Below, piece after piece: positions 26,987 through 61,733 of a DNA stretch of 64,000 nucleotides. Below the pieces are notes generated by a model that had not been told where the DNA came from, ran no database searches, and saw nothing but the letters and a program-made list of their open reading frames with translations. The DNA lies in NCBI GenBank assembly GCA_903813345.2, contig CAIIXF020000002.1, positions 23,388,455 to 23,452,454 on the forward strand. Direction: 5' to 3'. The DNA is from Owenia fusiformis (lineage: Eukaryota; Annelida; Polychaeta; Sabellida; Oweniidae). How positions within the stretch are numbered: position 1 is the stretch's first letter; every line of letters starts with the position of its first letter. A program made the translations under genes and the position numbers.

Positions 26987-26999
26987 GCTCTTCGGTCTA

Positions 27000-28584: not shown

Positions 28585-28640
28585 ATGTACACGCTCAGGA
28601 TTGGTATAATGTTAAGCGTCCTGACGATCACAACTGTGAG
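28585..28640 (+). CDS. Exon 1 (signal peptide) of a GABA-A receptor beta-like subunit gene
   Basis: Seen: an ATG at 28585 opens 18 codons, MYTLRIGIMLSVLTITTV, plus two bases (AG), then the strong donor gtaagtat at 28641. A TAA in the same frame at 28561-28563 means this is the first usable start. The base at -3 is G, a favourable initiation context. The peptide has a basic residue near the N terminus and a hydrophobic core, as in a signal peptide. Splicing to the exon at 40984 completes codon AG/G and continues with GDNMNGTEDVN in the frame that carries the receptor motif. Known: subunits of this family are secreted into the ER through a cleaved signal peptide encoded in exon 1. Inferred: exon 1 and the next exon are directly joined; another small exon inside the 12.3-kb intron cannot be excluded. 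It follows a CRE/NRF-1-containing segment. This exon is less certain than the other two because signal peptides carry no family signature. Confidence 0.7.
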
Positions 28641-29471
28641 GTAAGTATATTTGGTTTAATACTCAGTAACTATTAACGTACTTATATAACTTATATGTAT
28701 CTTCATTATCGATGGAATATTTTCCCCAGAGTTCGTACATGCAGAACATTCTAAATGATTATTCTATGAAATACTTGCATAGGATAAAGTGTCCCGTTGT
28801 AGGGGCAATGAGCATATACAGCATTTCGACAGTCAGTATTCTTCTGTTATTCCTGATCAAAGGCCAGAGACGTTAAACGTCATTCATGCATGTATTCACT
28901 TATGAATGAATACATATGCTATATATCATTATTTTTTTTATTACGGTACTTTTTATTTAACTATTATGATGAATTACGTGACATATTAGAAATGTTAAAG
29001 GTATATTTTTTAATTGAACAACAACAATTTATACATCATCAATAGCAAATTACAGTTAATTATAATCATTAATTAAGAAAAACAAGCGTTGTGTATCGTT
29101 ATCAACTGAATTATATCCATGGAATGTACAGATGCGTTCCATCTTACAGAAGATCATTATTAATACGAATCCCACTGTGATGCGAGTGCCATGAAAGTTC
29201 GTTTAATTATCATTTCCGATGATCGAAGTAACATCTTCAGTAACATCTTATATTTTACATTCCAGTTATGTTTACGGTATTTATTAGTGTGTTTGGTATC
29301 GCGTATGATACATCACATTTATCTGACATAGCCGTGTGGCTCCTGCTGATATTGACGGATCATGTGCTCCGTGTAAGGTCACCTATCTGTAGCAATATCG
29401 CAGAAATCTCCGCATCAATCTCTAGTATCTCTTGCAAATACAATTAGCAAAAATGATATATCCGTGTTAAA

Positions 29472-29526
29472 GAGACCCTGTTTACAAGCCAGGAGAACTC
29501 GGGTCTCTCCAAGACTTGTATACAGG
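29472..29526. other. Two overlapping alternative stem-loops
   Basis: gagaccc (29472-29478) pairs with gggtctc (29501-29507). cctgtttacaag (29477-29488) pairs with cttgtatacagg (29515-29526) with one mismatch. The stems overlap, so they cannot fully form together. Confidence 0.35.
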
Positions 29527-29546
29527 ACTATAGCTACTATTTGATC

Positions 29547-29850
29547 TCTCTAATATTTGACACTAACTACTTCATGTTTTCTCTAATATCGGACACTAAT
29601 AACTCCATATTTTGTCTGATATTAGACAATATTTATTTCATATTTTCTTTGACATTGGACAAAAACTACTTCATGTTTTCTCTGATATTGGACACTAATA
29701 ACTTCATAATTTCTCTGATATTGGACACTAATTACCTGATGTTTCTCTGTCAGCGGACGAATTACTTTATGCTTTCTCTGATATTGGACACTAATTACTT
29801 AAGTGTTCTCTCTGATAGCCAGCGGACACTGATGTCTTCGTGTTTTCTGT
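29547..29850. repeat. Tandem array, 33-bp unit, about nine copies
   Basis: The unit is tctctgatattggacactaa followed by ttacttcatgttt, with units at 29547, 29580, 29613, 29646, 29679, 29712, then slightly shifted copies to about 29850. Since 33 is 11 codons, the plus frame 29541-29972 stays open and gives SLILDTNYFMF-type repeats. With no splice context it is probably a repeat artefact inside intron 1. Confidence 0.9.
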
Positions 29851-32129
29851 ACGACATCAGTGAACGCAAGTGGTGTTGTATTTTATTGTTTCTCGTGAGT
29901 ACAACTATGAGGGAAAGTAAAACAATAATTTACCCCTTGGGATGTTGCGCTAATAATTGCAATGTTATTTAGGCCAATACAAGCATCATGATTGCTATAT
30001 TTCATTAATTAGGACAATCGAGCATTCCCTTGGAGTTGTATAGTTAATTTGCCGTATCATTTCTGCTGAACAATATTAAACGATTCTACCGTAATTTAGC
30101 AATGTGGGATTTGGGAACTGTCAACAGATTACTTAATCAAACGCTACATTCCGTAACAAGAGGAACCACAATTTATTTTTTACACATGTAAAGGCATCTT
30201 TTTCGTATTTTAGATTTATATTTGAATATTACACAAATGTATTTACGAATTGACAAATGCAAGTCTCTAATCTTAGACGAATACATTTTTCAATTGTGTT
30301 GATATTTTTTTGTGTAAGCATTTTCTCATACAAAACCATACCAAATTTCTGTTCGGGAATCTTTTTTGTCAATATTTACCAAATCACTATACTTTTCTTA
30401 CAAAATAAGCTCGTTTTCTACTTTCTTATGACGACTAAATATACACGAGATATTATTAATTACTCCATACTTACTTTCATCAAAGATATCATTTTAGTAT
30501 TTTTGTTATCAATGGAAAATATCATTTTTACTAAAACATCGAATATGGCTTTTAAATCATGAGATACCGCATCGTATCTTATGGATAACGAACTTTTGCT
30601 ACTTGCTTCAAAACGAGGCTGTTAGCAACAATAATGACAGATCAATCATTTGAGAAGTTTGATTCAAATCATTGAAATAAGAACATAAAAGAACATCCTC
30701 TATAAACTCATACAATGTATTAGCATGAAAAATGTCACCACATACCATTTGTTACAAACGCCGACCGCCGAACGCTGTTACAGTCGCCGACAATCAATCG
30801 CTGAACAACAGCCAAAAATATATAGAGACTTCAACAATACGTCACCATTTGTGGTAGTGACGTAATTAAAACCAAATATGTATATATCAAGGACAAACCA
30901 GTTGAATGCTGTAGTGCCTGAACAGAGAAATGCGGACATTCCTAAATAATTTTATTGAATTTAATACCGGTTGGCTTAAGATCCGTCCGACGCATTTGTG
31001 TGCCTTTATGTATCAGGAAAAGGTGTAAATACTGCTCTGAGTCTCTAAGTGGCTGTTTATAGGTATTTCAACACATCGTTAATAAAAATATCAATATAGA
31101 ACTTGTTTTGAGATAATCTCATCGTTTTTTCTAAGAGGATAATACTCTTTTTAAACCTGAGAGTAAATAAAGCAGCCTAGCCACTTTCGTTATTCATCAA
31201 AATAAAATTAGTTTAAGTTTAAATGATATTAATTTTCAAGGCTTAACTGATGGACTCACGAATGGCATTTGAATGTGAGTGCTAATTATTTTCTTTAGCT
31301 CCTCAAGTATGGCCACTCCTCTGCAGTTTTAGATTACTATTCTTTTGTCATTGAGTGGTCACTCCTAGAAGTCTATTAAAGGTGAACGTTCTAAAAAGGG
31401 TTTACAAGATTTAAACATTGAAATCAACTCAAAGTATCAAATATAAACGTTTTTTTTTATTTTCTTTATTTCAATACATTTTAATCATGTATTATGTATT
31501 AAAATGCAAATACAAAAGGTGGCAGTACATGTATCGACAGAAAATCATGCAGTTGTTGGCAGTCAGCTTTTCCTTAAAATTGGGTCATAAATAGTCTAGA
31601 AATATGTGAAATATCCCAATCCTCATTAAAGCGCATAACAGCCAATTGTCTTGCATTCGTTCACTTGTAGTTTACATCTATTAGCATAGTATCCAAACCC
31701 AACAGTATCTTGAAATCAGATTGCATGTTAAGAGCTTGAGATAGTTTGAGAGATAGTTTGTATGTTGAGGGTATGTTGAGAGTCTGAAATATGACCCATT
31801 AACATTGGAGTGCCACAAGGTTCAATAATTCGACCATATTTCTTTATAAATTAATGACCTTCATATAATATCTAAATTCCTTACTGTTACTGCGTATATT
31901 CTTATAATTTGTGACAGTTGAAAAAAACAAATGTGAGATATTTCCAAATGTGTAAAATCATTTCATAAAATGAAAAGAAAACATAATTTCTATAGAATCT
32001 TGTTTGTGTACATATCAAATAAATCTGGTATGAAGCCCCCGATCCGCCGCATCTCAGTTCCCCCTTCCCAATGTGTATTTATACAGCTCGATCTGTTTCG
32101 GTATTTTCACAGTGTTTTCATAATTCGAT

Positions 32130-32345
32130 ACAAATATCTAAGCACAAGTACGAAAGGGAAATGACCCAAAACTATATAGAAACTTAGCAAGAAAAACAAA
32201 CTCTAAAACTTGTCAGTAGAAAAGTAGGCCCTATTTATCCCAAAACCATGATCTAACGTGAAAATAAGTTATGTCTAACACCCCTTCCCCCACCAATCGA
32301 GAACCAATATCACTATTCTATCCAGGATCAGAACAAGCAAGACAA
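32130..32345. repeat. Dispersed repeat family R1, copy 6
   Basis: agcacaagtacgaaagggaa, aagaaaaacaaactctaaa, tatcccaaaaccatgatcta, acgtgaaaat and accccttcccccaccaatcg follow the order of copy 2, with one short internal insertion (gtcagtagaaaagtagg). Confidence 0.65.
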
Positions 32346-32367
32346 TATTCTGAATTAACCTGATATA

Positions 32368-33242
32368 CACTCCCCTCCATAAGTTTGGCAACCTTTTTTC
32401 TCCATTGAACTACGTGTTAAAGCCTCTTTACGTTTGAATTTTTATTTACTTAACCGGCGATGAAATAACTTATGATATTGATAGAAACGTAACTTGACTT
32501 TATTTCCAATACCTCCAAATTTTCTAATTTTTTTTCCTCAATTACAATAGGTCGAAAATTGATGATAAATTTGATGAATTTTTGAAAATCGTCATTCTCA
32601 TGTAATCCAATGGGAAATGGAGGGTTCAGGGCAAATCAGAAATCAGAATATCTTTTCAGTAAAAGATTCAGCAAAAAATATTTTCATATAGAAAATTGAA
32701 TTATCTAACTTTTTTGAACACTAAGTGTTTAGTTTATTTGATGAATATTAAAGTTACAGCGCTTCAAAGTCATTTTTGAAAATTATTTTTCGCCTCCTGT
32801 GTTATTTCAATGGGAGAGGTTTTTTGAAAAACAATTTTGACTTTAAAGCCCTATAACTTTGTTGAACCTGAAGAAACATATCAATTTTTTATTAAATAAA
32901 GTTCGCAAATTCAATTACCTGCCTAACTCGTATTTTTTGCAAGGACTCGGATGGATGGATATTCTGTCATATGACTTGCGGCAAACCTACCATTTCCCAT
33001 TGGTTAACATGGGAATGTCGATTTTCAAAAAATCATCAAATTCATCATCAATTTTCGACCTATTGTAATTGAGGAAAAAAAATGAGAAAATTTGGAGGTA
33101 TTGGAATTAAAGTCAAATTACGTTTCCACCTATAGTATAAGTATTTTCATCGCAGGTTAAGTAAATAAAAATTCAAAGGTAAAGAGGCTTTAACACGTAG
33201 TTCAATGGGGGAAAAAGGTTGCCAAACTTATGGAGGGGAGTG
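32368..33242. mobile_element. 875-bp palindromic (fold-back) element with TA target site, Tc1/mariner-like
   Basis: Ends are cactcccctccataagtttg and its reverse complement, flanked by TA (32366-32367 and 33243-33244). The first and last about 260 bp are nearly perfect inverted repeats (aaagcctctttac, ttacttaacc, caattacaataggtcgaaaa). The interior is also self-complementary at lower identity, up to a centre near 32805. Examples of inner pairing are gaatatc/gatattc, caaaaaatatt/tattttttgc and gttacagcgcttcaaagtca/ctttaaagccctataac. It has no transposase frame. If transcribed within the receptor pre-mRNA it would fold into one long hairpin. Confidence 0.88.
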
Positions 33243-36200
33243 TACATGCAATCAATTATTGATGTAGTACCGATATCAAGAGACCGGGAATAATTTAAAT
33301 GACATAACTGGCATCATAACTTAATTTTATAGTACGCAAGAGATAGAACAATCCTCGTAAAAGTGGTCTAGAAACGATATTAAAATCATTCAACTTCGTC
33401 CAGGGTTGGTCAATGGGACATTGGAAATGAAAACAGCATGTCAAAACTCTACTAAATAAGATACATTATTTCTAGATACCACGCTCTTTACAGCGAAGCA
33501 AACGGTTTTTATGTTTATCTTATCTTGCTTATAATTAATGAAGGATGGTCTTTTTCTAATATAATTTTCATAGATTTATCAAAGCAAATCTGGAAATATC
33601 TGTTGCAATTATCTTAAAACATCTGTATCATAACTATAACAGTACGAGATTTAATGGAACTGCACATCAATATCAAATTTAAAAATCAAGTTCCCGTTTG
33701 ATTTTTTCATCCGTTGTTGCTCGAGAGGTGTATGATTTATCCATGCCGTTTGTCAGCTAGAATGACATATTGAATTCATCCCAAATTAATCAAATCTATA
33801 AACATAAACACTTAAACACTTATTTTTACCGTCATCTACGCTAATTTTTAATTTTGCTAAGGAATGAAACATTCTTATATTCCAGGGAAATGATTAGTAT
33901 CTGATATATTCTTCACTTAGCATTCCATATATCATCTTGTATTGGCATATGCCCCAGCTGTTATTTCCTTCACATACATGAAACAGTTTGACTATGTAAG
34001 AATAGATGTTTATGCCAAGTTCATTGACCATGTTAATTCCACCATTTATACATACATATGTAGATCCGAGACTAACATAAAAAGATATACTAAATGAATA
34101 ACCATATATGGGCATAGAGGTGCATTCAAAGTCTTTTATTTGAATTTTCTAAAATCGTCATGTTTATACTTTTTCCAGGGAAGATGAAGTTGTTTACATT
34201 TTATGTTCATTTTTCTATATTGATGTGGATATCAACATTTTATTCAAGAAGATTTACAAATCATTGCAATTTCATATTCTAAGAAACTTAGTAAGGCATC
34301 TGGGGCCTTTCAGAAAGTTGCATTGTTGAAATGGTGAAGGAGCATTGGGAGTTGCTCATGGACTTCAAGAATTACATGGTCAGACGTTGTCCTCTAGGCC
34401 CTATATATTTGATTTTGCTTCTGGTAATACCTCGTATCAACTTTTCTTAGCTTCTATCAGAGTTCAACGATCGCATGCTTCTAACAATTTAGATACATCA
34501 CTAAATATCCCGTTAAAGCTGAAGAGGTTTCTACTTCCCTGCGTTATCTAAGGTGAAATGAGCAAATACCGATACATAAATCAATTAGCCTAGATTAGCC
34601 ACAAGATGATAATGTACATCAACCCTTACATAAGCAGATGTTCCGTATGAAATACGAAACATATATGAAGTACGAAACTTTTGCATGAATATAAAACATA
34701 AATATTGACTAATTTAATACGTACGTGGCTTTGAAACAAAATATGAAAAAATATTTAGAATACAGATGTAAATCTAATGTACCCTTAATTTTTATTGGCG
34801 AAAATATATAAGGCAAGTCACTTTTACTTAATTAATCAATGGACAATAGATTGCTTTCTGCAAACGATTAGCAAAGCTCTTCCATCAATTACCCAGAAAC
34901 CCTTGCAGTAACTACCCCTTAACACGCACTGGGGACATAGTTGAAAACATGCGTTTTACACAACATGGAAACAATAACGTGTAATTCATTACTGACGTGA
35001 TATAAATTTGTATCAATAAATGAACGCTATATAAAAATGAAAAACGATCATCACAACAATATGTATATTGTCCTGTCATCTTCTCGCACAGCCTGATTTA
35101 TTTGCTAATATTATAAACAAAGATCACAAGGTTCTTTAATAAGAAAATATTTAATTTATTACAGTACCTAATAAATTAATTCACGTAGTTGCATTCTTCT
35201 TACCCTGAGGGCACTAATAAGAAAAAGAAAAATCAAACCAATGGAACATTTGCTTTATATATGGGTAAATAGATGGCAGTACGTGTGTTGGTAGGGCTAG
35301 AATACTATTTATAATATCTAGACAACTAGTAAAAGTCACTTAATTTTAAGATTTATCAAGTATTTCTATTTGGATTAATGTAAAACAACAATGGGATGTA
35401 ACTATATAAACCTATTGTCATGTAGGTTGTGATTTAACGTTACAATCGTGATCCTTAAAAGAGGAAATTAAGTTTTAACGATTTTTGAACATTGCGTCAA
35501 TGGGGATTTAGCCCGACCTTTTTTTTTAGAAAACTTGAAAATTGAATAAACTAAAGGTAAAATAGAAAATTACACACAGAATTCAAATATGCCATCAAAT
35601 AGAAGACAATGGTGGTCTTCAACCCAAAATCTCATTAAAAACGAGACTTCAACGAGATTTCAAGGCTATTTAGCAAACCCTCTATTTAAAAATCATTGGC
35701 TTCTGTCTCATTAAAAGCATCACGATGATCGATTCAGAAGAATTACAAGGTCTTGACCTCCAGAAAAAACAGTTGATTCATTATGCAATCATAGATGGAC
35801 GTAAATGTTTCTGTAACGTTTGTCTCAAATAAGATCCTGTTTGGAATCGGTACAAAAAATGATCAGAAAAAATAATACCGATTCAGATTCTCTCGGGGAA
35901 TGTAATGATATATTACTCAACAGAATATGATATATCTTATGGACTAAATACCTAGCTCTATAGAAATGGTTATGATCATACATTATTAAATTCTCTCGAA
36001 GACGTTTGGTATGGAAAATAACTAAATAATGCATACGGATGCATACAGATAGAGATACGAGGACTGACAACAAACTGGTATACGATGTATAAATATTTAT
36101 TTTTGTTCTGGATTCCGTACACAACCCAAGATTCATCGATTTATAATAAAATAATTAATACCCATATATGTTCATATACTGGTTCTTTATGTATTTTGGA

Positions 36201-37680
36201 TAAATCAATCACTCTTAGATATACGATCAATCAGTCTTGAGGTACAGGATTTGACATATTGTGTTTAGCGAAATGTACTTCATGGGGACGTCTTGATTCA
36301 GCCAAATCCTTATCTAGACACCATACTCATATGATCTTGAATAATATGGGTAAGTAAGTGTGCCCATGCTTTTACAAATTCGCTAATTTGGGACAAGCAC
36401 TACACAGATAAATTGTATAACCCAATAAATTCCTGAGAGTTTTTGGCTTGTTTTGGTCTTATTCGATTGTATCATATCCCTAATCATCCCTTATCGTATG
36501 GCCTTCTTGCCAAATCGAAGATTTTACCGCTTATCCAGTCAAGATGGTGAACACGAAAGTGTTCAATTAATCTTGAGAATGATATATTTTTTCAGATTTG
36601 GGAGTCAGTAGAGAAGATATTGGCGAAACTAAAATGATATTTCATAAAAACACCGGAATGTTCCCCCTGAATCACGGACGTTATACCATACTCTGTAACT
36701 TCCGTAACATACCCTGGTATTGGATTTTTTCCCTTGACTGAATCGCGTCCAGGTGAGACGTGATTTTGCGAGACTCTAGGACGAGATTATAGAAAACGTT
36801 TCAGTGTATGAACGTGTAAAATACAGTTAAAAAGGAAAGGGTCTCTTTCTGCCAAGATATCTGTACGATTGAAATGTGATTGAAATGGTACTGTAATGTG
36901 CCATTGAGTCAGTGTGTAACGTGTGCCCCAAAACAAGCAAATATTTATAAAATGGACTGCAAACTGTTTCACGACATTCAGGGCTCTGGTTAGACAGTCC
37001 GTTGATTAAATAACTCAATCATTTGATGGTGACTCTTTAGATTTGATAATCCAATCCACACTAATATGCACTGTGAATGACATTTCATCATGTCGTTTTC
37101 AGACAACGTATAAAGAATGCAAATATCGTTTGAAGAGCTAAAACCACCCACGTGAATTTAGTAAGGTGAAGTGATAGTGTTGGTATTAAGAAGGTAAACA
37201 TAATGTTGTTTCTGGGTTTCTCGTAACTTGTCCTTATCGAGAGATTGGTTTCGCATCTTTAAGAGTGCTTCGATCTGTACTTTAGTCGTTATACTCTTAC
37301 AATGTTGATAATCTTACTTGAAGTTCCTCTGCCTCCCCTTCACACACATACTCCATCTTCTCAAGGTAGTCCCCTCTCAAAAGTAAATAGGGAGGACTTT
37401 AGAGACCGTATAGTAATGTGCAATCGAGCTATTAGGCCATCACGAGAAATCATGACCTTCTGAAAAACAGAAAGATGTGATGAGTATCAAAATGCTATTA
37501 TGGAGGTTAAGCTTCAATTTTTGAAAATGACTTGTACGGGAACGTGTTGAATTATGATGCTTTGGGAATTAGTTTTCCACTTCGAAGTTGTTACTTGCCC
37601 AATTGAGTACAACCCTAAAAGAAATGATTTAAATTAGGTCCCAGGAAAAACCGATTGAGAGGAGGACAGTTATCCCTAGG

Positions 37681-37843
37681 CAGGGGCAGATCTGGGAACC
37701 AACAAGAGGGGGGGGGGGGCGTAGAGAAAAAAATGTTGCCCCTAAAACCCAAAAGTGGGCCGAGATTTTGAAAAAAAAATTGGCCCAATTTTTCTTTTTC
37801 TGGGCCCATCCAAGGCCCCCAGCCCCCCCCAGATCCGCCAGTG
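37681..37843. mobile_element. hAT-like MITE (163 bp)
   Basis: Left end caggggcagatctggg and right end (reverse complement) cactggcggatctggg match at 13 of 16 positions. Inside are a 12-base G run and gcccctaaaacccaaaagtg, shared with 1971-2130. An intact 8-bp target duplication is not visible; only ctag is shared by the flanks. The overlapping minus-strand frames (37615-37809, 37629-37859) are typical by-products of this repeat. Confidence 0.6.
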
Positions 37844-38039
37844 CTAGTATAGGGTTCATAATATCACACGTCCACGTACACTGTTCTTATAAAAAATATG
37901 TAGCATAACCTCCGTTTTACTTTTCAAATGGGACGTAAACCATGCATACACAGTGGTGAGTTAGTATTTCGTGAGTAATGATAAAGTATACCATCACCAG
38001 AAGCATTGAAGACCTTTTCAATAATCATTCACCAAGAAC

Positions 38040-38180
38040 CAATGAGGATTGGCAGCCATTATTCAAACTCGATATTCCGTTGCCTGGCGTGGAACAATTC
38101 TGTAAGATTCTCTTTACCAAAAGAGGTCCACGCCGGGCAACAGAGTATCGAGTTTGAATAACGGCTTCCAATCCTCCTTG
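38040..38180. mobile_element. MITE family M1 relative, copy D (141-bp hairpin)
   Basis: Arms 38040-38093 and 38127-38180 are inverted repeats matching at about 48 of 54 positions, beginning caatgaggattgg / caaggaggattgg. The flanks carry a perfect 9-bp target duplication, accaagaac (38031-38039 and 38181-38189). It shares only the outer about 13 bp with copies A-C and lacks their interior, so it may be a different non-autonomous family moved by the same transposase. Confidence 0.9.
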
Positions 38181-38493
38181 ACCAAGAACCGTTCTTTGAT
38201 CTTTGCTCAGATATACTTTGCCATGCTTGACCAGACATGACCGTATCTTAGTTTATTGCCTGTTGATGGATTGGATGTCCTGAGCGATCTGTACTAAAAT
38301 ATTTCTAGTATCTTCCCGATCAACTTTAAAACCATACTTGTGGTAAAACCTCTGTAGTAATGTTTCACCAGCAGGATTCTCTGGTTTTGACTTTTGTATT
38401 TTTCCGATTTAGCTGTTAATATAATCCGAACACCTCCCAATCTGAACACTTTTTCGGTCCCAGGTTCTCCTCCCATTGACCCCCATGTTCACG

Positions 38494-39315
38494 GGCTGGT
38501 ATCGAAATATTTGTCCGCTGTGACGGAGCATGCTATTTTTTATAAGAACACTAAGAATACTTCACAATTTATTTTTTAACTCATATGTTTCGTTATACCA
38601 TAGAAAATTACTTACTCCATGCAATGGATATATCATTTGCGGGTAACTTTAACTTCTGTTTGAAGTTCAATTACGCTGGGAAGAAAAGCTATTGAAAATG
38701 GCGCCGGAGTATCATACTTCAAAATGTACCATTTCTTGTTTAACTTTCTATTGGCACGATATAGTGACATGATAATATTTACACATGGTTTCAGCATAAC
38801 TAAGAAGGTATAGATGAGATGTTGATGTATTTGGTCTTTTTAACTCTTTTATAAAAAATAATTTTAAATTTTTCTGTCCGCTGTGACGGAGCGGTTGCAA
38901 ATGTGTACTGTGAAAATGCTCCGTCACAGCGGACAAAAAATATCAATATTATTTTTTATAAAAAAATAAAAAGACCCAATGCATTAATATCTCATTAATA
39001 CATTCAGAGTTATGTTATAAACATATGTTAATATTATCGTGTCACAATATCATGCCATTAAAAAGTTAAAAAAGAAATGGTACATTTTAGAGTGTGATCC
39101 TCTGGTGCCGTTTTCAATAGCTTTTACTCCTAGCGTTATCGGACATCAAACAGAAGTGACGGTTACCCGCAAATGATATATCCATTGCATGGAGTAAGTA
39201 ATTTTATTTGATATATCGAAACATATGAGTTAAAAAATAAATCGCGAAGCATTCTCAGTGTTTTTATGAAAAATGGCATGCTCCGTCACAGCGGACAAAT
39301 CTTTCGATACCAGCC
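38494..39315. mobile_element. 822-bp nested palindrome carrying four copies of a 17-bp motif
   Basis: The 17-mer gtccgctgtgacggagc occurs at 38513 and 38876 (plus) and, inverted, at 38918 and 39280. Each arm is about 362 bp between motifs, and the arms are inverted copies of each other (ttattttttaactcatatgt, actccatgcaatggatatat, aaaatgtaccatttctt). The inner motif pair forms a central hairpin with a 25-nt loop at 38905. Outer pairing extends to ggctggtatcgaaa/tttcgataccagcc. Direct repeats (aacacctcccaatctgaac / aacacctctcaatgtgaac) flank it. Short frames starting or ending in SAVTEH derive from the motif. Confidence 0.88.
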
Positions 39316-39499
39316 TGTGATGTTAAAAGATCTTAAAATATGAACACCTCTCAATGTGAACAGTGAACAGTCATATTTCTATTTATAAACTTAACCTGTC
39401 CAATCTGAAGAGTTTTCACAAAATATTACATGTTTAGCTCTCTTTTAGTAGCGACGTCAAACGAATGCAAATGGTGACAAAGGTAGCTCAAATTATTAG

Positions 39500-39850
39500 A
39501 CACTGTTGTATCATAACATCATGCGTTAGTAAAGGCTCTCTATCATAATGTATTAAATGTAATTTACTTATAGAAATCCTGCGTTAGAAAAGGCTCCCTA
39601 TATATTAAATATAGCTTACTTATATAAGTCATTCGTTAGTTAAGGCTCACTTTATGTTAAATGTAGCTTAAGTTTTCAAAATATTGCGTTCGTTAAGGCT
39701 CTTTATATATTAAATTGAGGTTATCAAAACCTGCGTTAGTAAAGGCTCTCTTTATATTAAATGAAACTTTTTATTTAATGTCTATTCAACCTGCGTCTCT
39801 AGATCTTATTTATTCGAACGCTGCGTGCGTAAGAGGGCTTTTTATTTTAT
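39500..39850. repeat. Degenerate tandem repeat, about 47-60-bp unit, about six copies
   Basis: cctgcgttagtaaaggctct followed by atattaaatgtagctta recurs from 39523, 39581, 39633, 39686 and 39733, with two weak copies after that. Confidence 0.8.
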
Positions 39851-40983: not shown

Positions 40984-41111
40984 GGGCGACAACATGAATG
41001 GAACCGAAGACGTTAACTTAATGTCCAATAAAAACAACTCTACCAATGTATCAGCCATAATTGAAAATCTCCTACAGGGATACGATATACGACTTAGGCC
41101 ATATTTTGGAG
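40984..41111 (+). CDS. Exon 2 (N-terminal ligand-binding domain) of a GABA-A receptor beta-like subunit
   Basis: Seen: the acceptor ctgttcatcatttcag precedes base 40984 and the donor gtgagtaag follows base 41111. Entering in phase 2, the 128-bp exon encodes GDNMNGTEDVNLMSNKNNST and then NVSAIIENLLQGYDIRLRPYFG, and ends in phase 1. The Asn-rich segment has several N-X-S/T sites (NGT, NNS, NST, NVS) suited to glycosylation outside the cell. LLQGYDIRLRPYFG is the hallmark of the N-terminal helix and first strand of GABA-A receptor subunits (beta-type: LLxGYDIRLRPxFGG). Known: these subunits assemble as pentameric chloride channels gated by GABA, and the exon boundary just after the FG of this motif is conserved in the family. 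A longer open frame overlaps it in another register, but only this frame has the motif, the splice sites and compatible phases. A glycine-receptor or GluCl assignment fits less well because both differ at IRLRP and in the next exon. Confidence 0.93.
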
Positions 41112-41575: not shown

Positions 41576-41600
41576 CGATCTCTCTCTCTCTCTCTCTTTT
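41576..41600. repeat. CT microsatellite
   Basis: Uninterrupted ct dinucleotides of roughly 20 bases after ttgcgat, followed by a short inverted gagaggagag. Confidence 0.85.
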
Positions 41601-48785: not shown

Positions 48786-51325
48786 CAATATTTTTGCATC
48801 ATATGCATTTTGATTTTTAAAGCAGCTTGCTATTTAATCGACAGGAACTGATAGGGGGGCTGTGGTCTCTAACGATGTATTATAGGTCACATTTTCTATT
48901 CTTGCATCATATACATTTTATTTTTCAAAGCAACTTGCTTTTTGATCGAAAGGAACAGATGAAAGACAGTGGTCTCTAACGATGTATCATAGGTCACATT
49001 TTCTATCCTTGCATCATATACATTTTATTTTTCAAAGTAACTTGCTTCTTGATCGAAAGGAACAGATGGAAGACCGTGGTCTCTAACAATGTATCATAGG
49101 TCCCATTTTCTATCCTTGCATCATATGCATTTTATTTTTCAAAGCAACTTGCTTCTTGATCGAAAGGAACAGATGAAAGACAGTGGTCTCTAACGATGTA
49201 TCATAGGTCACATTTTCTATTCTTGCATCATATACATTTTATTTTTCAAAGCAACTTGCTTTTTGATCGAAAGGAACAGATGAAAGACAGTGGTCTCTAA
49301 CGATGTATCATAGGTCACATTTTCTATTCTTGCATCATATACATTTTATTTTTCAAAGCAACTTGCTTTTTGATCGAAAGGAACAGATGAAAGACAGTGG
49401 TCTCTAACGATGTATCATAGGTCACATTTTCTATTCTTGCATCATATACATTTTATTTTTCAAAGCAACTTGCTTTTTGATCGAAAGGAACAGATGGAAG
49501 ACCGTGGTCTCTAACAATGTATCATAGGTCCCATTTTATATCCTTGCATCATATGCATTTTATTTTTCAAAGCAACTTGCTTCTTGATCGAAAGGAACAG
49601 ATGAAAGACAGTGGTCTCTAACGATGTATCATAGGTCACATTTTCTATTCTTGCATCATATACATTTTATTTTTCAAAGCAACTTGCTTTTTGATCGAAA
49701 GGAACAGATGAAAGACAGTGGTCTCTAACGATGTATCATAGGTCACATTTTCTATTCTTGCATCATATACATTTTATTTTTCAAAGCAACTTGCTTTTTG
49801 ATCGAAAGGAACAGATGGAAGACCGTGGTCTCTAACAATGTATCATAGGTCCCATTTTATATCCTTGCATCATATGCATTTTATTTTTCAAAGCAACTTG
49901 CTTCTTGATCGAAAGGAACAGATGAAAGACAGTGGTCTCTAACGATGTATCATAGGTCACATTTTCTATCCTTGCATCATATGCATTCTATTTTTCAAAG
50001 CAACTTGCTTCTTGATCGAAAGGAACAGATGGAAGATCGTGGTCTCTAACGATGTATCATAGGTCACATTTTCTATCATTGCATCATGTGCATTTTGATT
50101 TTCAAAACAAAGTGCTTCTTGTCGAAAGGAACTGCTGGAAGATTGTTGTCCCTCACGAAGTATCATAGGTCACATTTTCTATCCTTGCATCATATGCATT
50201 TTATTTTTCAAAGCAACTTGCTTTTTGATCGATAGGAACAGATGGAAGACCGTGGTCTCTAACTATTTATCATAGGTCCCATTTTCTATCCTTGCATCAT
50301 ATACATTTTATTTTTCAAAGCAACTTGCTTCTTGATCGAAAGGAACAGATGAAAGACAGTGGTCTCTAACGATGTATCATAGGTCACATTTTCTATTCTT
50401 GCATCATATACATTTTATTTTTCAAAGCAACTTGCTTTTTGATCGAAAGGAACAGATGAAAGACAGTGGTCTCTAACGATGTATCATAGGTCACATTTTC
50501 TATTCTTGCATCATATACATTTTATTTTTCAAAGCAACTTGCTTTTTGATCGAAAGGAACAGATGGAAGACCGTGGTCTCTAACAATGTATCATAGGTCC
50601 CATTTTATATCCTTGCATCATATGCATTTTATTTTTCAAAGCAACTTGCTTCTTGATCGAAAGGAACAGATGAAAGACAGTGGTCTCTAACGATGTATCA
50701 TAGGTCACATTTTCTATCCTTGCATCATATGCATTCTATTTTTCAAAGCAACTTGCTTCTTGATCGAAAGGAACAGATGGAAGATCGTGGTCTCTAACGA
50801 TGTATCATAGGTCACATTTTCTATCATTGCATCATGTGCATTTTGATTTTCAAAACAAAGTGCTTCTTGTCGAAAGGAACTGCTGGAAGATTGTTGTCCC
50901 TCACGAAGTATCATAGGTCACATTTTCTATCCTTGCATCATATGCATTTTATTTTTCAAAGCAACTTGCTTTTTGATCGATAGGAACAGATGGAAGACCG
51001 TGGTCTCTAACTATTTATCATAGGTCCCATTTTCTATCCTTGCATCATATGCATTTTGATTTTCAAAACAAAGTGCTTCTTGTCGAAAGGAACAAATGGA
51101 AGACCGTGGTCTCTAACTATTTATCATAGGTCCCATTTTCTATCCTTGCATCATATGCATTTTGATTTTCAAAACAAAGTGCTTCTTGTCGAAAGGAACA
51201 GATGAAAGACAGTGGTCTCTAACGATTCATCATAGGTCCCATTTTCTATCCTTGTATCATATGCATTTTAATTTTCAAAGCAAAGCCGATGTGGGACTGT
51301 TGTCTCTAACGATGTATCATATGTC
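48786..51325. repeat. Satellite array, 107-bp unit, about 24 copies, with higher-order structure
   Basis: The unit contains tatcataggtcacattttct, cttgcatcatatgcatttta, caaagcaacttgcttcttga and gaacagatggaagaccgtgg. The anchor ggtctctaac recurs at 48971, 49078 and 49185. A marked variant (ctaacaatg...ggtccc) recurs at 49078, 49505, 49827 and 50575, that is every 4, 3 and 7 units. The blocks starting 49966 and 50714 repeat exactly at 748 bp. Both flanks are diverged copies, as usual at satellite edges. Minus-strand frames 49966-50166 and 50714-50914 are by-products. Confidence 0.96.
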
Positions 51326-52988
51326 AAATTCGAAGCAAACATTGAAAATTGGAATTTGATTAATGTAGGTAATACTTAACAAACTTCAAGGACGTTAAAC
51401 AGATAATAATTGGCAAAATTAATGGCACATAACTGACATGCATGTTAAGACATCTTGACCTATATGAAAATAGTGAATGACATATGATGTACTATGTCAT
51501 TGTGATCCTGGACCATAATCAACCCAAGATCAAAAATATTCTTTAGACTATCATATTGATGAACAATATATGATTAATGTAATGGAACTTCGATTTTGAG
51601 AAAATATAGTAATGATTATAATTATGAAGTTACTATTTTCAATGTATGTATTCCCAGATAGATTACATGGACATAAATAACTTGGGGAAATTTATCAAAC
51701 TGATCATTGAAACGGATATAACATGTCTTTTCGTCTAGTTTAACCAAGCGTAAAACAGTCGACTACTTATACATATCAATAACCTATGTGTATTTGGTCT
51801 TTTTATTGCGTTTCTTTATTATCTTGGTCGATAATTTCGATTTTTGCATGACACAAGTCCTCTTTAAGATGTGGTAAACATTATAAGAAATCAATTATTT
51901 CTTTTGACTATTGGAATGCTATTATCAGTCAGTTGGATTCCCATTTTTGCAAGAGGAAATACCCCAGAATTGATAGATTAAACTCTGTATAAAGACGAAC
52001 CATCTATGCATTCTGGGACATTCCTCCACCATTTGTGCTGTGTGTAATACCATATGAAATAATTGAGTAGAATGGTATATATTGAGATTGATGACATGAT
52101 GAATCGAAAAGAACACGTGTAATGTTGATGCAATTAGAGCCCATAATGCCAAGGTCAAGGTCACGTTAACGATCGTTGGACATGCTGAACATACCAAACA
52201 AGAGGCTTGTTATATCAGTGTGTATCACAGCAATGCAAACAATCTCAAATATGTTTTTCCCGACCGTAACCTTCTTGGTATTTTTACATCATGCCAATCA
52301 ATGAGCTTGTAATTTGTTCTAAGAAAGTGTTAAAATGAATCTTTTACATATGTCATGCCCAATGTTCCCGAAATCATTAGATTCACTTTGATCCAATATT
52401 GTAAAATATAGATATTTATATAATATTTTATGTATTATATAAATATATTAAACCTGATTTAGCGTGTCCTGGAACGGGGAGGATAATCATTTGGAAGATG
52501 AGCAATTCACACCAAACTACCGCTATCCATCTCCCCACGAAACTACTGGCGTTAAATTTCATAATGATACTGATGCACATACTATTCCGGCAGTAAGGCT
52601 AACTCAACGTATCTGGTATTTCCTGTGATCTTTTCATGTGGAGATATTAAATTAATTCAGCTTCTCCTACATTTCACCATGGTAATCTGTTTGGAAAACA
52701 AGCCAAGACAAGAACATGCTGTACATACGGTTTGCTTATTCAATTGTAAGACACAATTACGTTTGTATAGATCCACAGATTGGTAGCCCTGATACGATCA
52801 TATGGGTAGGGTTTCATCAAAGAGCCTTGATGTCTCTCAATTGCGCCATACATTCACCAGAGGGAAGCAAATAAAATGAGATTGTGTTAGACGCTCAGAG
52901 GCAATGACATCAAGAGTAAACAGCCCGAGATGAAGAAATATATTGAAGATGTAAAAAATGATACCGATATGGAACTGCGAAAATCAAG

Positions 52989-53132
52989 GTCAATAGGGAG
53001 TTTAAGCTTGCATATAGAATCGAAACGCCAACCTATACGTATGACAAATCGACCAAACAAATGCATCGCTGAAATATTTTCTGTTCATGTTTAGGTTGTG
53101 AAAAACATTGCAAGCTTAAACTCCCCATTGAC
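52989..53132. mobile_element. 144-bp element with 24-bp terminal inverted repeats
   Basis: gtcaatagggagtttaagct + tgca (52989-53012) matches the reverse complement of 53109-53132 at 23 of 24 positions. No target duplication could be fixed. Small MITE-like element in intron 2. Confidence 0.6.
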
Positions 53133-56100
53133 GGTGCATAGTGTCAAGGTTGTTTGTTATAGTTTCCCAGATTGTGTTTTGAGAAAAATGTTATATATTT
53201 GGCCATCCTACTCTCTTGAACTTTCAATCTATGGCTCACTTTAAAGATACTTTCTATCAACAAATCTACTTTACAGGTATAAATGATATTTTATATCAAA
53301 ATTTTAGAAGCGATAGAAAATGCACTTGCATTTTAAAATAAATTTGAGTAAATTAGTTAATTACATATTTTGTTGTTATATTGTTCCATACAAATTCATG
53401 GTAACATCCTGTTTTTTTACTCGAATGACGGAAATCGACAAGGACACGTCATTCACGGTGATCTTTTATGACTTCAGTAATATATGTAACCTTTCTGATA
53501 AAACTGATCCGCAATTAAGACAGTGTAAACAAGTGTAACAGATACGTTTATTGGAGGTTATCACTCTGTGTCTTCTCGTTTACTTAGATTGTACAATGTA
53601 TTTCTTTTGTAATTGGAGATCAGATGAAAAAGAATTCTTCTCTTTTGTTAAACCGATGAAATTATTAATTTTGCTAAATTAACATTACAAGTCCTTATTG
53701 TTACTATTGCCATGCCCTAGGCATCAAACAGCTGAGGTATTTAGAATACAGACATTATTGTATACTTCCACAAGCAGTCAATAATACCCGGGGGTCAATA
53801 ATGAGCCAGACGACATCCAAAATCTACACCATATAATCGAACACGTCCTACAAGTTGAATATAACATGATATTAAATTGGTGTATGCCTTTTACATCCAC
53901 TTACATATCACTGGTCGAGTCAATATAAATTCGCATGTTCTGCAAACTTTGTATTACGGCATGGTTTCGTTTCGTCGATAATTAGACATTCGTATATCGA
54001 CAGACAGATGCAGTACTATTGTGTCATAAAATATTGTACTTACAAAGAGCAATCTTCTGTTATCACATATCAAGTTTAAGACATATAATCAATAGATCCA
54101 GACTGACCCTGAACTCAGTGAATAAGAGTATAAAGAAATGATAGAACGAGTCCCGACGTGTACGTAAGTACGACACTTCTACTAAAAGGTATTTAAACAA
54201 ACATAGAAACGGTCACTAGAAACAATCCCTTACAACCGAAACAAATGATCTAAAGGTAACGACCCTCTTTCACCATTCGGAAACATTCCTGAAACTACAA
54301 CAATACACCAACAGTCTGAAATCAAAACTTAGTAGCATTTTATACAATCACATAAATCAGGCATTGAGTCCAAAATGAAGAAATTTCGAGTTTGAATATA
54401 TTGTTGTTTTTACGATGGATCATAATTTGGGATAGTTGGGTTTCATGCCCGGTTTGTGTTATGTTCCAATTCGATCTATGTCTAGGGTATTTTTCCTTTT
54501 GGCATTTATACTAGCATGTTTAGCCTCAAGTTATGTAAGATACATAACATTGCCCGTGTTACTAGTAATCAATGTTCGATCTTGAAAATATTCCGGCGCA
54601 TCTTTGATGCTATTATACACTACTAAAACATCCATATTATTCTACCAGTGTATTATCTGCAGTCATCGATGATAAATAAAGAGGTGATTTTATTTCAAAA
54701 AGGTTGCTCTTTCGTTGCTTTGTGATGTGCATTGTTTGTCTGTACAATGATGGATAAAAGTACACGCGTCGCTGAAATGAAATTGATATCTAGCTTTAGT
54801 TCAGAAAGGAGAAACACCAAATAAAATGGAAAATCTAAGTAAAAAGAATATTATGCTAACACTAAAATACAGCCGGTCATGTAACAAACAATTAATTGGA
54901 TGTTAAAACAATACATATTTGCTATATTATGTTAAATTCAAGTTTGGGAAATGGAGTCCTTTAGATTGACAAAATGTTACTCTCTTAAGACATTGCGTGT
55001 CTTATTGAATTTCATCATTGTATTGTTTTTTTTGTCGATTAGAACTATGTTCTGTTATTATTCGTCTAGATCTGGTCGTAAGTGCTTTATTCGTGTTTCT
55101 TAAATGAAACGACATTCCTACTTTTAATCTATCAACAGGGAAATATCTCAGAAATCGTTAATTATATAAGTTTGTCCCATAATCATAAAGATATTTTCCA
55201 GTAAATATATGGGCCCTACTGGGTCTATAAATTTAAAACTTATTATATTGCCTATTAGGTAACTCAGTATTGGACCTACTTCTAAGAGCAGTTAAAAATT
55301 GCGTTTTTGAAAAATAGGATTACATGACCTTGAAAATATATGGACCTTGACCTATATATCTCGTACAATACATTAATAAAGCCATATAGAACATGCGAAA
55401 TATTACTTATTAAGCTGAAACATAAACTTCTCATGAAAGCAAATTGGTTTAACTAATCTGCATTGTGTTTGACCTTCACTGGACTGCGAGAATAAAAAAT
55501 GTTCTAATTTCTTAAATTTTGTTTTGATTCTCCATTTATAAGTCATGTGATCTATATTCAGAATGAGGCTATGGCCTCTTAATGTAAACTAGTCCGGGAA
55601 AATAGTGAAGGGATTCATACACTTTTTGATGATGTCATCACGACAGTTTACAATTCTTCACGAGGAGTCATTTAGTCACAAATAAGTTAACAGCTTCAAA
55701 ATGAGAAATCTCCAGTATCCTTCAAAAATATGTGTCAAGGTAAAATAACGATTTTGACATGATATCATTTACATTGTTCTATATGACCTCAATGTGAGTA
55801 TGTGTGCTTACATTTTGTCCAGAGTTTTTATGATGTTTTTTTAATTCTTTTATTTACATACTGTAGAATGCTTTATTCAGAAAACGGTTACAAAAATGCC
55901 CTGAGTTTCTATTTTATTTTAAAATAGTTAATGGGGTTTTGAACTTACTATCGGCTTTGATTATTGAAATATGACACCAAATATGGCTAAATATAATCAT
56001 GGGTCAAGCATTACTTATTGAAAACCTTTCATTCTCTTCAAAGTGAAGCAATATTTAGTCCATTGACATATAAATTTTGCAAAATGGCACGTTTACCTTT

Positions 56101-57263
56101 TTCAGCTTGTAGTGCCTAGATATAATGATTTAGAAGCACGATCTAATCACTATTTTATCCTTCCATTGTTTCAACAATAGGGAGGTGTCCACTTTTCTGC
56201 ATGTAGTTTCTACTTCACTTCGCTTTTAAGAAGCAAGATAATACTATACTGGACTTCGAGACATTGCCCTTTTCAAAGTAACCGCAAAAGGAGCATTCGT
56301 AGTATGTAAATTACCCTGACCTTTGTGAAATGACTCACTATTGGACTCTTTATCATGACCCTGCTAAAACACATATTTATGCCAAAATTTGTTAATCCAA
56401 AATAGACATGTGCATATTGTATACCAACGAAGAAAGAAGATAAAAGAAGATTTTAGGCATAGAGTTTCTTACGTAGAGCGACAGACATATCGATGGGACC
56501 TTATTTTCGATCTAAGATGTATGTGTTTAACCTAATTGCATTCGTAGGCGACAGGAATACATCAAGGACCAAACCTTATGTCAGCTCATTGGCATATTCT
56601 GCGTTTTGATTGAGCAATACCATAGGGACACTATATCAAGTTTCTGTCAACTTGACATTGGTGAAAATGAGTTTGACTAATATAGAAATGATTTTTGACA
56701 TCTTCTGAGACGTGGGAAAATATATGAGTGAAGCTACATTAATTGTACCGTGTGAATCAAATTATCTACATTGCTTGAATCACAATTGATTAAAGAAAAA
56801 TGCGTTGATAATTAAATTGCACCCACCGACGCCAACAGGAGTGTCGATTTTATTTTAAAAAGTTAATCGATTACTAACTCTTCACGGAAGAAAATAATTT
56901 AAATTCTGCTTTTTATCAAATTGTGCCTTTATTTGCTAACAGTAAACGAAAAGTGTTAGATCACCCGGAAGATGTTTGATTGTGTATGTCAGTTTTCATT
57001 AAACTACTGTAAATTTAAATTTTCTAACAGCCATTTTCAATCTACAATTCAACTATTTAAATCTGCTATTCGTGATGTAAATTATAGTAATTTGGTAACG
57101 ATAGGCCCAGTTCACATTTTAAACCATACTTTTTGTATATATTATGTAAAATGAAGTGACAAATTCTGACATTGATGTTTAGTAGATCCCAAAATGAATT
57201 TTATATGTAACATTAACAATCATTTTTGAGGTACTAATAGGAAGCTGGGAGAAAAATCGAAAA

Positions 57264-58105
57264 TATCTTAAGAAACATATAATTTTATACAGATGTACTA
57301 TGAAATATAAATAGTTAATCATATCCTAATGTATACGTTTAATGTATTGTTTCAGTGAATATATCTTAAGAAACATATATACTATGAAATATAAATAGTT
57401 AATCATATCCTAATGTATACGTTTAATGTATTGTTTTAGTGAATATATCTTAAGAAACATATATACTGTGAAATGTAAATAGTTAATCATATCCTAATGT
57501 AACGTTTAATGTATTGTTTCAGTGAATATATCTTAAGAAACATATATACTATGAAATGTAAATAGTTAATCATATCCTAATGTAACGTTTAATGTATTGT
57601 TTTAGTGAATATATCTTAAGAAACATATATACTATGAAATATAAATAGTTAATCATATCCTAATGTATACGTTTAATGTATTGTTTTAGTGAATATATCT
57701 TAAGAAACATATATACTGTGAAATGTAAATAGTTAATCATATCCTAATGTAACGTTTAATGTATTGTTTCAGTGAATATATCTTAAGAAACATATATACT
57801 ATGAAATGTAAATAGTTAATCATATCCTAATGTAACGTTTAATGTATTGTTTTAGTGAATATATCTTAAGAAACATATATACTATGAAATGTAAATAGTT
57901 AATCATATCCTAATGTATACGTTTAATGTATTGTTTTAGTGAATATATCTTAAGAAACATATATACTGTGAAATATAAATAGTTAATCATATCCTAATGT
58001 ATACGTTTAATGTATTGTTTTAGTGAATATATCTTAAGAAACATATATACTATAAAATATAAATAGTTAATCATATCCTAGTGTATACGTTTTATGTATT
58101 ATTTT
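57264..58105. repeat. Satellite array, 83-84-bp unit, about 10 copies, with a 250-bp higher-order repeat
   Basis: Units begin gaatatatcttaagaaacat at 57357, 57441, 57524, 57607, 57691, 57774, 57857, 57941 and 58025, preceded by a diverged copy at about 57264. Unit lengths are 84 or 83 depending on gtatacg versus gtaacg. The order tgtg-unit, ttcagt-unit, ttttagt-unit repeats with period 250 bp (57441 to 57691 to 57941). Confidence 0.95.
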
Positions 58106-58132
58106 GATTATTATGCTATGTTTTGTGCACCC

Positions 58133-58200
58133 TTTGCATCCGTTCGACTTCGCTTCTCAAAAGAGATCTTCATCTTTGGGTAGTTTATAACTAGACTCTG
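58133..58200. repeat. Dispersed repeat, copy 1 of 2
   Basis: tttgcatccgttcgacttcg ... gtagtttataactagact is shared with 61425-61475. It lies just right of the 84-bp satellite. The minus-strand frame 58111-58425 begins beyond it and ends in it, with no recognised product. Confidence 0.6.
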
Positions 58201-58626
58201 TGCGCAAGGTATGGTTTTTTGTGCCATAAAAACGATAAAGCTGAAAACAGAAAAGAAACAGCATAGTATTGTAGTATTAAAGCCTGTCCCAACAGGTATT
58301 TGAATTTCATGAATTAAACTGATAAACATATGCATTTCGTATAGTCCAGCTGTTTCTAGTAGACACTTCCTGAATTGTTTTTTATGAAAATATGTCGAAC
58401 AGAAATATTCATTTTCATCAATCATTCACAACTATAAAACATATTTGATGTCGATTTAAGCAACTTCAAAAACATGTTGCAAATTGAGTTACTTTCAAAA
58501 AAGGAACATCTCAGATAAGACATGTGGATGCAAGGAATTCGAACAATCAAGCAAGCTGTTATGAAATATACAATTGGACCGTTTTAGTGCCTCGTCGTAA
58601 TCCCATTAATCGTAAACCAACCTGTT

Positions 58627-58711
58627 CCCCATACCATGGGTTTGCCATGTTTATTCCCCATACCATGGGTTTGCCATGTTTATTCCCCATACCATGGGTT
58701 TGCCATGTTTA
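58627..58711. repeat. Tandem repeat, 29-bp unit, three copies
   Basis: ccccataccatgggtttgcc followed by atgtttatt at 58627, 58656 and 58685, nearly identical. The frame 58524-58853 changes register at each copy, so it is not a repeat protein. Confidence 0.92.
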
Positions 58712-58999
58712 CATCTCGTTAAAAAAAACTTTCAAGATATTCATTTTCTGTAAGGAGTTTGTATTTTATAGTTCCATCAGTACGGAATTTCACACCTTTA
58801 ATCTGATTCCATCCACATTTCCACAGGAATGGAATGTCATACCAAGGTGTTAGCTAAGAGAGGGAGTATCAATGAGCTCATTATTTACACGTTCAACTGA
58901 CTTTTAATCAACATTCTAGTCGGAAGAGTCATAGAAGTATATTTCCCCTCATTCATGCTCATATAAAAAGTGTAAGCGCAGGGTATGTACCAAAATAGG

Positions 59000-59145
59000 T
59001 AACGTGTCATACGTTTAAAAACCGATTTCAACTCATTCATGCCCAGGTAAATATGTCATGCTCAAGTAAATTTGTAAACAGAAATGCACCTTAACGTGAC
59101 ATACGTTTACAAACCGATTTCTCTCATTCATGTCCAAGTAAACAT
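59000..59145. repeat. Two-copy tandem repeat, about 92-bp spacing
   Basis: aacgtgtcatacgtttaaaa + accgatttc...tcattcatgcccaggtaaa is repeated as aacgtgacatacgtttacaa + accgatttc...tcattcatgtccaagtaaa. Confidence 0.75.
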
Positions 59146-59804
59146 AAGGAATCATAAAGAATCAAACCAAAAGCATCCAAAATAAGCTAACATTGAAGGA
59201 CACAGTGTATAACGTTCTTTCTCCACACCATTCTCAAACAAAAAAGAGGACCAACACTCCCATTTTAAAGTAGTTGTAGAATTTAGGTATTAAAAATCGT
59301 ACGAGGTGGAGTGTTTAGTTTCAACTGATTTGAAACACTCGGGTACGTATCTACTAGATTAGAAATTCATAAATATGCATGTACAACCGGGGTGTACAAT
59401 CGCCAAAGTGGAATTGCAAAGTATTCAAAAACAAAAGATCAAATTTTCAAACTATGTATGATCTAACACACGAAGATACGATCCATCTTTTAGGCACTGT
59501 AACAATGACAACCTTAAGACAATGTGACATTCATTCTGTCATTGCATTCATTGCTGAATTCTTCAAATACTGATCTACAATTAGATTTTCAATATTTTCG
59601 CATAAAAATAGATGTAAATACTCCAGTAGTATTCATACAAGACAGGGCAGTCATTCTCAAATGGTGAGCAATCAGACAAAATCCATGAGAGTGTCAAAAT
59701 GTCAAATCCCATTCGAAAAGCCGCCGCCATAGTGTCAAAGTCCGTGAAATAGTTAAATGCTAGTAGCGATTGTGTCTGGATACATTTTGGCATCTATTTT
59801 AGCC

Positions 59805-59890
59805 GAGAGGGCTTGAGCGCCAGCACGTTCAAATAGGCGATTGGGCGCCGTAACCAAGAGGTTGCGAGTTCGAGACGCGAGTGCTCCTTG
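59805..59890 (+). repeat. tRNA-derived (SINE-like) repeat
   Basis: Box A-like tagccgagagggcttgagc and box B-like gagttcgagacgc are spaced as in a tRNA, with an anticodon-arm-like cgattgggcgccgtaacca between. It shares its second half with 2390-2440. The acceptor arm does not close, so it is a SINE head or tRNA pseudogene rather than a working tRNA. Confidence 0.5.
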
Positions 59891-61424
59891 TATTTATTCA
59901 TTTATGATTTCATTTATTAGCTCCATTGAATTATCCAGATATTGGACATGTTTACTTCTTAAAGCTTCAGTAAAAGCACACGATTAAACCTTGACAGACA
60001 CAGTAAGCACCATGAGTTTTATCAATTGGGGGCGAGAACACGACGGTTCCTCTGATCGAATCACAAAGGATAACCTTCGATTAAGGCGAATTCCTCACAT
60101 TGTTTTCATATCCGAATCAGATTTTGCCTTCAACTTAAGTTGACAAAGGTTATAATAGATATCGGATGCTAGTACTTGTATCAATTGTATTTGGTTTTAT
60201 GATAATAATACAGTTCAGTTAAGAAAACACCCAAACGGTTATCGATAATGGTATAATGCTTATAGTGTTTGCATTGAAATTCTATTATATTTTAAACAAC
60301 ATATACTCAAATGCATATCCAATTAAGAATTGGCCTGGACACAATTGTTTACTATATCAATACAATTCGTTTAATAAATCGCTCTTGGTAGTATTTGAAC
60401 TTAACATTACTGTCGAGTTGAAAAGCATCAAAGTTGTTCTTTAATAAACACGGTTATTTCACTGTAAACAGAATCTGAAGTAATCAATGGTCTATCTCCA
60501 TCATTCCAAGCCCAAGGTCATCTCTGAACGGTGCTTCAAAACGAGTATTTACATGAGAGTTGCTCAAAGTCGTATTATAGATTAGAATGTTTAGATTTTT
60601 AGAAATGTACCATTTCCGTTTTCTTCCCTTTGGGCATTGGTAATGCATGTCTTTGATGCAGGGATGCATTATTTTTCAAAGTTTACCAAGGAATATTTTG
60701 GTATAGATATCTGTTTCATGTTGGATAGAGAAAGATCAAGGGGTGTGCTTGTAAGCACCTGGAAAAAAAGTATTAAATGCTAGGTTTTACTTGTCTTCGA
60801 AGATTGATGTTGGTCTGGGATAAATTATAAAACATTTGGATAATCTTTGCTATGAAGGTGCTATTCATAACCTTCATCTCATCTTCACTGGTTCGTTAAT
60901 GGAGGAACTTTAACTTGATATCAAAGAATGATATACCTGGTTTAAGCTTATCTACTTAAACAAGAAATACAGACTGGATTTCTGTGATGAACTTTTACCG
61001 AATGTATACTCAAATCTACATACTACACAACCATGTCCACATACGGTAGCCAATTACAAATATAAGCTTTGAGCTTTTCGTTTCTGTTGTTTGCAGTCAT
61101 TGATTGTATTGGTTTCTGCTTCATTATACACCACAAAACATGTCTTCACATCAACTGCCAATTAGGCGGGTATCCTTAATTAATTGTTCTAGTATGAGCT
61201 CATAGCGCCTAATCAATGCATTGGTATGGGTTGGCGTCTTAAGGTTGCTGGGAATGTCTGTTCTGTCCACCGGTGTATTATGTTTGGACTTAAGAAGATA
61301 GATAAGGATGAGATCGTCGATTTGATGCTGAATGTAACATCCGGTTCATTATAACAATTTCATTTTGTCCCGCTTTATTTCACACTACGGGGTGCCAAAT
61401 AAGTCCCGCCTCTTAATTCTACCA

Positions 61425-61475
61425 TTTGCATTCGTTCGACTTCGGTTCGTCTTCGTAGTTTATAACTAGACTACT
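61425..61475. repeat. Dispersed repeat, copy 2 of 2
   Basis: tttgcattcgttcgacttcg ... gtagtttataactagact, as at 58133-58200 but with a shorter spacer. It lies about 190 bp upstream of exon 3. Confidence 0.6.
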
Positions 61476-61665
61476 CTGCGGCCAGGGTACCCCCTTACTT
61501 CAGTTACAGCCTTAATAAATTGTTCCACAATGTGATATACCATTGGAAAGATCATCCATTTTGCATGTAAATGGAATTCGGTATCCTGAATACATGTACA
61601 CGTGAAGTGTCCTAGTGTTATGAAATTAAAAATATTTAAAATGTTTATTTCATATATGATTTCAG

Positions 61666-61733
61666 GTGAAGCTTTACATATAGACATAGACCTCACAGTG
61701 GCAAGTTTTGATAGTATATCAGAAGTTAATATG
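61666..61733 (+). CDS. Exon 3 (68 bp, beta-strand/loop region) of a GABA-A receptor beta-like subunit
   Basis: Seen: the acceptor tttcatatatgatttcag ends at 61665, and the donor gtaagaca starts at 61734, right after ATG. Entering in phase 1, the exon encodes (G)GEAL and then HIDIDLTVASFDSISEVNM. It is exactly 68 bp. Known: GABA-A receptor subunit genes have a 68-bp exon at this position, encoding the stretch before loop D that ends SEVNM in beta subunits. The sequence resembles GABRB and insect LCCH3. Context: it lies 20.6 kb downstream of exon 2. The next exon of the family (about 221 bp, beginning DYT/DFT-like) was looked for in 61734-64000 and not seen, so the gene runs out of the window. 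Its reading frame is the same one set by exons 1 and 2, which independently supports all three calls. Confidence 0.94.

Follow-up and report, generated by a model that had tools for sequence, protein, structure and literature searches.

The question raised by this locus is whether three very short exons, lying tens of kilobases apart, belong to one gene and, if so, which receptor subunit it would encode. They lie in the window, that is the whole analysed stretch of 64,000 nucleotides (C2:23388455-23452454, C2 being contig CAIIXF020000002.1); window-extended coordinates continue past its end. The comparisons described below indicate that these three exons open a complete gene of nine exons, which would encode a beta-type (LCCH3-like) GABA-A receptor subunit; from the sequence, this identity is given a probability of about 0.93. 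The gene is an ordinary, expected new member of a known family and an expected component of the animal nervous system; the added value lies in its genomic position.

Exons 1 to 3 of the beta-type gene

The earlier note on this DNA had proposed three exons with canonical splice sites, joined in one frame; their coordinates, lengths (56, 128 and 68 bp) and AG/GT borders proved exact in every case.

28585..28640, plus strand: exon 1, 56 bp; ATG, with MYTLRIGIMLSVLTITTV resembling a signal peptide; phase-2 end, followed by donor gtaagt
40984..41111, plus strand: exon 2, 128 bp; Asn-rich linker, then LLQGYDIRLRPYFG; acceptor ending in cag, donor gtgagt
61666..61733, plus strand: exon 3, 68 bp; EALHIDIDLTVASFDSISEVNM; acceptor ending in cag, donor gtaaga

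Joined, they encode 84 residues in a single frame. The peptide matches the Pfam ligand-binding profile Neur_chan_LBD (PF02931), the domain to which the earlier note had pointed, with an E-value of 3.9e-5, but its 23.6 bits remain below the family cut-off of 26. In the PDB, as expected for a member of the Cys-loop family, the peptide matches GABA-A beta chains and one alpha-6 chain (about 1e-8); in this comparison the window exons match the beta-chain motifs GYDIRLRP and SEVNM.

The likelihood of a chance match was evaluated for exons 2 and 3 against open stretches running from AG to GT, on both strands of the window, whose length and phase would fit, using fragments of PDB beta-3 and alpha-6 chains as the only references. 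Exon 2 scored 86, with runners-up at 25 among 525 plus-strand candidates and 28 among 326 minus-strand candidates; exon 3 scored 48, the runners-up being 24 (n=114, plus strand) and 26 (n=131, minus strand). This rescoring with PDB fragments was carried out because a search for extra copies had included the gene's own letters among its references. In that search, from which the exons' own sub-stretches were left out, no duplicate of exon 2, exon 3 or exon 6 was seen within the beta-type gene: the best other candidates scored 22, 24 and 32, where the exons scored 219, 106 and 240.

Exon 1 is beyond homology testing, and its assignment, resting on hydropathy and one donor site, is of moderate strength. 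ATG-to-GT candidates in window positions 1-40983 were filtered for a hydrophobic stretch combined with a good donor in phase 2; one out of 378 passed on the plus strand, namely this exon, and one out of 355 on the opposite strand. The latter is the proposed first exon of a neighbouring alpha-type gene, so that the opposite strand is no clean control. The signal peptide announced by the earlier note has in its favour the hydrophobic stretch and the position of sole plus-strand passer, while the similar hit on the other strand keeps the support moderate. The scan yields about one candidate per 41 kb per strand, which makes a single passer near chance expectation; the beta-type gene could then be real and have its true first exon elsewhere upstream, the 56-bp exon being a chance ATG with a donor. 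This is considered unlikely, though it deserves more weight than the other alternatives discussed below, since no other candidate on the strand in question passes within 41 kb and the exon shows a full gtaagt donor, in-frame stops (TAG and TAA) close upstream of its ATG and a phase that fits exon 2.

The complete gene and its product

Pfam matches past the window end, taken from the best-scoring candidates, led to six further exons on the same strand.

72888-73114 (window-extended), plus strand: exon 4, 227 bp
76665-76747 (window-extended), plus strand: exon 5, 83 bp
78094-78231 (window-extended), plus strand: exon 6, 138 bp
82402-82554 (window-extended), plus strand: exon 7, 153 bp
83757-84001 (window-extended), plus strand: exon 8, 245 bp
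86004-86384 (window-extended), plus strand: exon 9 with the stop codon, 381 bp; its start is set at the first of four frame-keeping acceptors

The nine exons (56/128/68/227/83/138/153/245/381 bp) have GT/AG borders and compatible phases, and together encode a product of 492 residues with zero internal stops. The next exon had been predicted at 221 bp: an exon is indeed found 11 kb past the 68-bp one, but it measures 227 bp, two codons more. Introns are long, from 11 to 21 kb in the 5' part, a feature that could fit a beta-type duplicate which has decayed or fallen silent. Such an origin is very improbable, given nine open exons with intact borders, the retention of the Cys-loop and of the full membrane profile, and the lack of a better beta-type copy among the genome matches listed. 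In a search of the same genome (best 87 of 120 candidates) the gene's own exons fill the top three rows, and above 100 bits the identity to any other gene stays at or below 59%.

The full protein contains both halves of a receptor subunit: the ligand-binding domain PF02931 is now above its cut-off (7.9e-50, 169.7 bits), and the four-helix membrane domain PF02932 is covered over profile positions 1-233 of 233 (4e-50, 171.7 bits). The Cys-loop, with two cysteines 13 residues apart, is located in exon 5 (CMMDLHNYPLDMQNC).

Identity of the subunit

The top PDB relative is a beta-3 chain, 8pet_B (4.9e-141, 473.8 bits). Among the best 60 of 133 chains, the other kinds follow with rho-1 (341.4 bits), delta (329.1), 9she (327.3), glycine receptor alpha-2 (316.4) and alpha-6 (307.7); 9she, which bears the PDB name subunit beta, is taken here, by its sequence, to be insect RDL. 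The proposal of a GABA-A receptor beta-like gene is thereby supported for the full protein. The competing assignment would be to the chloride channel subunits gated by glycine or glutamate, the families being related and glycine receptor chains scoring up to 316 bits; the distance between beta-3 at 473.8 bits and the top glycine receptor chain at 316.4 (best 60 of 133), and the beta-chain motifs carried by the window exons, make it the least probable of the alternatives.

GABRB1-3 are the nearest solved relatives, with an alignment reaching TM4, and their internal exon lengths are similar to those of the beta-type gene; exon 4 is different, being 227 bp here and contributing two extra residues. 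The EIESY residues of loop B, which act in the GABA site, are identical to those of beta-3 in the PDB alignment, whereas loops A and C are altered: DTFF replaces DTYF (Tyr to Phe) and LVTGAY replaces FATGAY (Phe to Leu). These changes suggest that the affinity for GABA may differ; a Tyr in loop A and a Phe in loop C are not defining for invertebrate beta types, and insect LCCH3 has the same Phe and Leu at these positions. The TM1-TM3 region, too, is probably much like that of fly LCCH3. Before TM2 the protein carries SAR (SARVALG) in place of the AAR of GABRB1-3, and PAR is absent; likewise, a section of PMC2064938 describes insect LCCH3 and GRD as subunits that have no PAR before TM2. As a putative orthology assignment, the LCCH3 label fits in view of SAR instead of PAR and of the adjoining alpha-type gene.

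Alpha-type gene and proposed divergent start

Upstream of the beta-type gene, on the minus strand and head-to-head with it, lies an alpha-type gene; all of its exons other than the candidate first one precede the window start on the same chromosome.

Window 20279-20352, minus strand: candidate exon 1, MNGRNIGHVIQGLTVLTLLHACMQ; proposed from the scan and from a phase that fits exon 2
C2:23370865-23370756, minus strand: exon 2, 110 bp
C2:23342063-23341996, minus strand: exon 3, 68 bp, equal in length to beta-type exon 3
C2:23340240-23340002, minus strand: exon 4, 239 bp
C2:23338207-23338125, minus strand: exon 5, 83 bp
C2:23337882-23337748, minus strand: candidate exon 6, first copy, 135 bp
C2:23336010-23335873, minus strand: candidate exon 6, second copy, 138 bp
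C2:23333806-23333648, minus strand: further exon past exon 6, 159 bp
C2:23332702-23332464, minus strand: further exon, 239 bp
Near C2:23326460, minus strand: TM4-like open stretch, left unjoined to the model
Window 20353..28584, no strand: interval between the alpha-type and beta-type start codons, about 8.2 kb; depends on both first exons

The protein is closest to an alpha-1 chain in the PDB (6.3e-90, 304.9 bits), followed by 9she (280.1 bits), a glycine receptor (275.1) and the best non-chimeric beta chain (261.5). In the scan for its first exon, four out of 570 minus-strand candidates passed, two of them with a common donor, and window 20279-20352 was the top one by combined score. If both first exons are correct, 8.2 kb separate the two start codons, which face away from each other, and the promoters of the two genes would fall in this interval.

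From the gene order alone, it can be proposed at about even odds that control DNA within the window, common to the two genes, drives their joint transcription. The putative signal peptide of exon 1 would send the beta-type subunit to the membrane, where, by analogy with its family, it would assemble into a GABA-gated pentamer and contribute the beta side of the GABA sites where it meets alpha-type subunits; the choice of the neighbouring gene product as partner is likewise suggested by gene order. As to the ion, PAR is found before TM2 in both the alpha-type and the RDL-type neighbours, and the combination of the beta-type SAR with such partners suggests chloride, which is predicted as the most likely ion when the partners bear PAR. 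With a PAR-less partner, for example the product of a second alpha-type gene, which bears SDR, the beta-type subunit could form a cation channel; insect GRD and LCCH3 form a cation channel, as mentioned in parts of PMC2064938 and PMC11275251.

Candidate paired exons 6 of the alpha-type gene

The two candidate copies of exon 6 are both open and have equal phases, good acceptors and weaker donors (gtaatg and gtaacg). Compared with one another they score 74; the interval's other candidates, in-frame pieces of either exon set aside, reach at most 16. They are likely to be alternative exons, presumably covering loop F and the beginning of loop C, and their sequence would suggest mutual exclusion; 135 and 138 bp are both multiples of three, so joint inclusion also keeps the frame. 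Alternative exons 3 and 6 are known for insect RDL, according to a section of PMC2064938; the RDL-type gene of the same genome has a single strong exon 3 and a single strong exon 6. None of the literature titles and abstract openings surveyed reports an alpha-type gene with a pair of exons 6, a weak absence in that subscription papers were largely outside this scope.

The second alpha-type gene is found on the same chromosome at about 4.87 Mb (C2:4867059-4879568); its exons 5 and 6 are fused, and SDR replaces PAR before TM2. No paired exons 6 were seen there: the 0.77 kb to the next exon yielded three candidates, none of them similar.

RDL-type neighbour and gene order

Downstream, an RDL-type gene is placed tail-to-tail with the beta-type gene.

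C2:23505691 to about 23483400, minus strand: RDL-type gene, span of the exons located past the first one

Its protein is nearest to 9she (1.1e-122, 412.3 bits), with beta-3 at 313.3 bits. Thus an alpha-type (minus), a beta-type (plus) and an RDL-type gene (minus) follow one another within about 180 kb.

This order can be compared with known clusters. On human chromosomes 4, 5 and 15, an alpha and a beta gene are head-to-head in each of the clusters treated in the relevant part of PMC1934366, so that human beta genes share with the gene described here a head-to-head alpha partner. In arthropods, the alpha-like genes 8916 and HoCas sit close to lcch3, a feature shared with insect LCCH3, as stated in a portion of PMC11275251 that mentions neither orientation nor an RDL neighbour. 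The alpha-beta adjacency agrees with both, as far as these portions describe them. In common with vertebrate alpha-beta-gamma clusters there are adjoining alpha and beta genes transcribed outward in opposite directions; in contrast, the third member, next to the beta-type gene, is RDL-type here and a gamma gene there, and no gamma gene was identified in this trio. The three-gene order is without report in the literature titles and abstract openings surveyed, which is again weak evidence, subscription papers lying largely outside them, and the portion of PMC13335744 consulted contains nothing on annelid gene order.

Tentatively, and at somewhat less than even odds, the trio may be part of a GABA-receptor cluster that predates the protostome-deuterostome split. 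The divergent alpha-beta start would then be a control region of ancient origin common to both genes, and the alpha-type gene would have its own alternative exons 6 at the exon position of insect RDL splicing. A head-to-head alpha/beta pair outside vertebrates makes the age of the arrangement directly testable, as well as matched expression of two partner subunits driven by a shared start region. The gene cluster is of modest evolutionary interest; the cluster and the paired exons 6 would be the parts of specialist interest. Judging by this locus, sequence by itself can suffice to find tiny 5' exons separated by tens of kilobases.

Other content of the window and genome

The window contains seven open frames of at least 120 residues, stop to stop; no tRNAs and no RNA families at Rfam gathering scores were found in it. 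Intron 2 of the beta-type gene harbors a tandem array of a 107-bp unit in 23 copies (window 48794-51283), and other tandem repeats have units of 84 bp (window 57289-58105) and 38 bp (window 15854-16371).

Elsewhere in the genome, a further Cys-loop subunit gene precedes the alpha-type one by about 200 kb (C2:23122147-23124074, minus strand), with a TM region that by eye is glycine- or glutamate-receptor-like. Contig C155 carries several Cys-loop receptor genes in a row with long single frames (474 to 498 residues), some of the matches having an internal TAG. Finally, very similar receptor matches occur at C124:449506-456678 and C2:18049722-18056540, possibly reflecting an unmerged haplotype copy.
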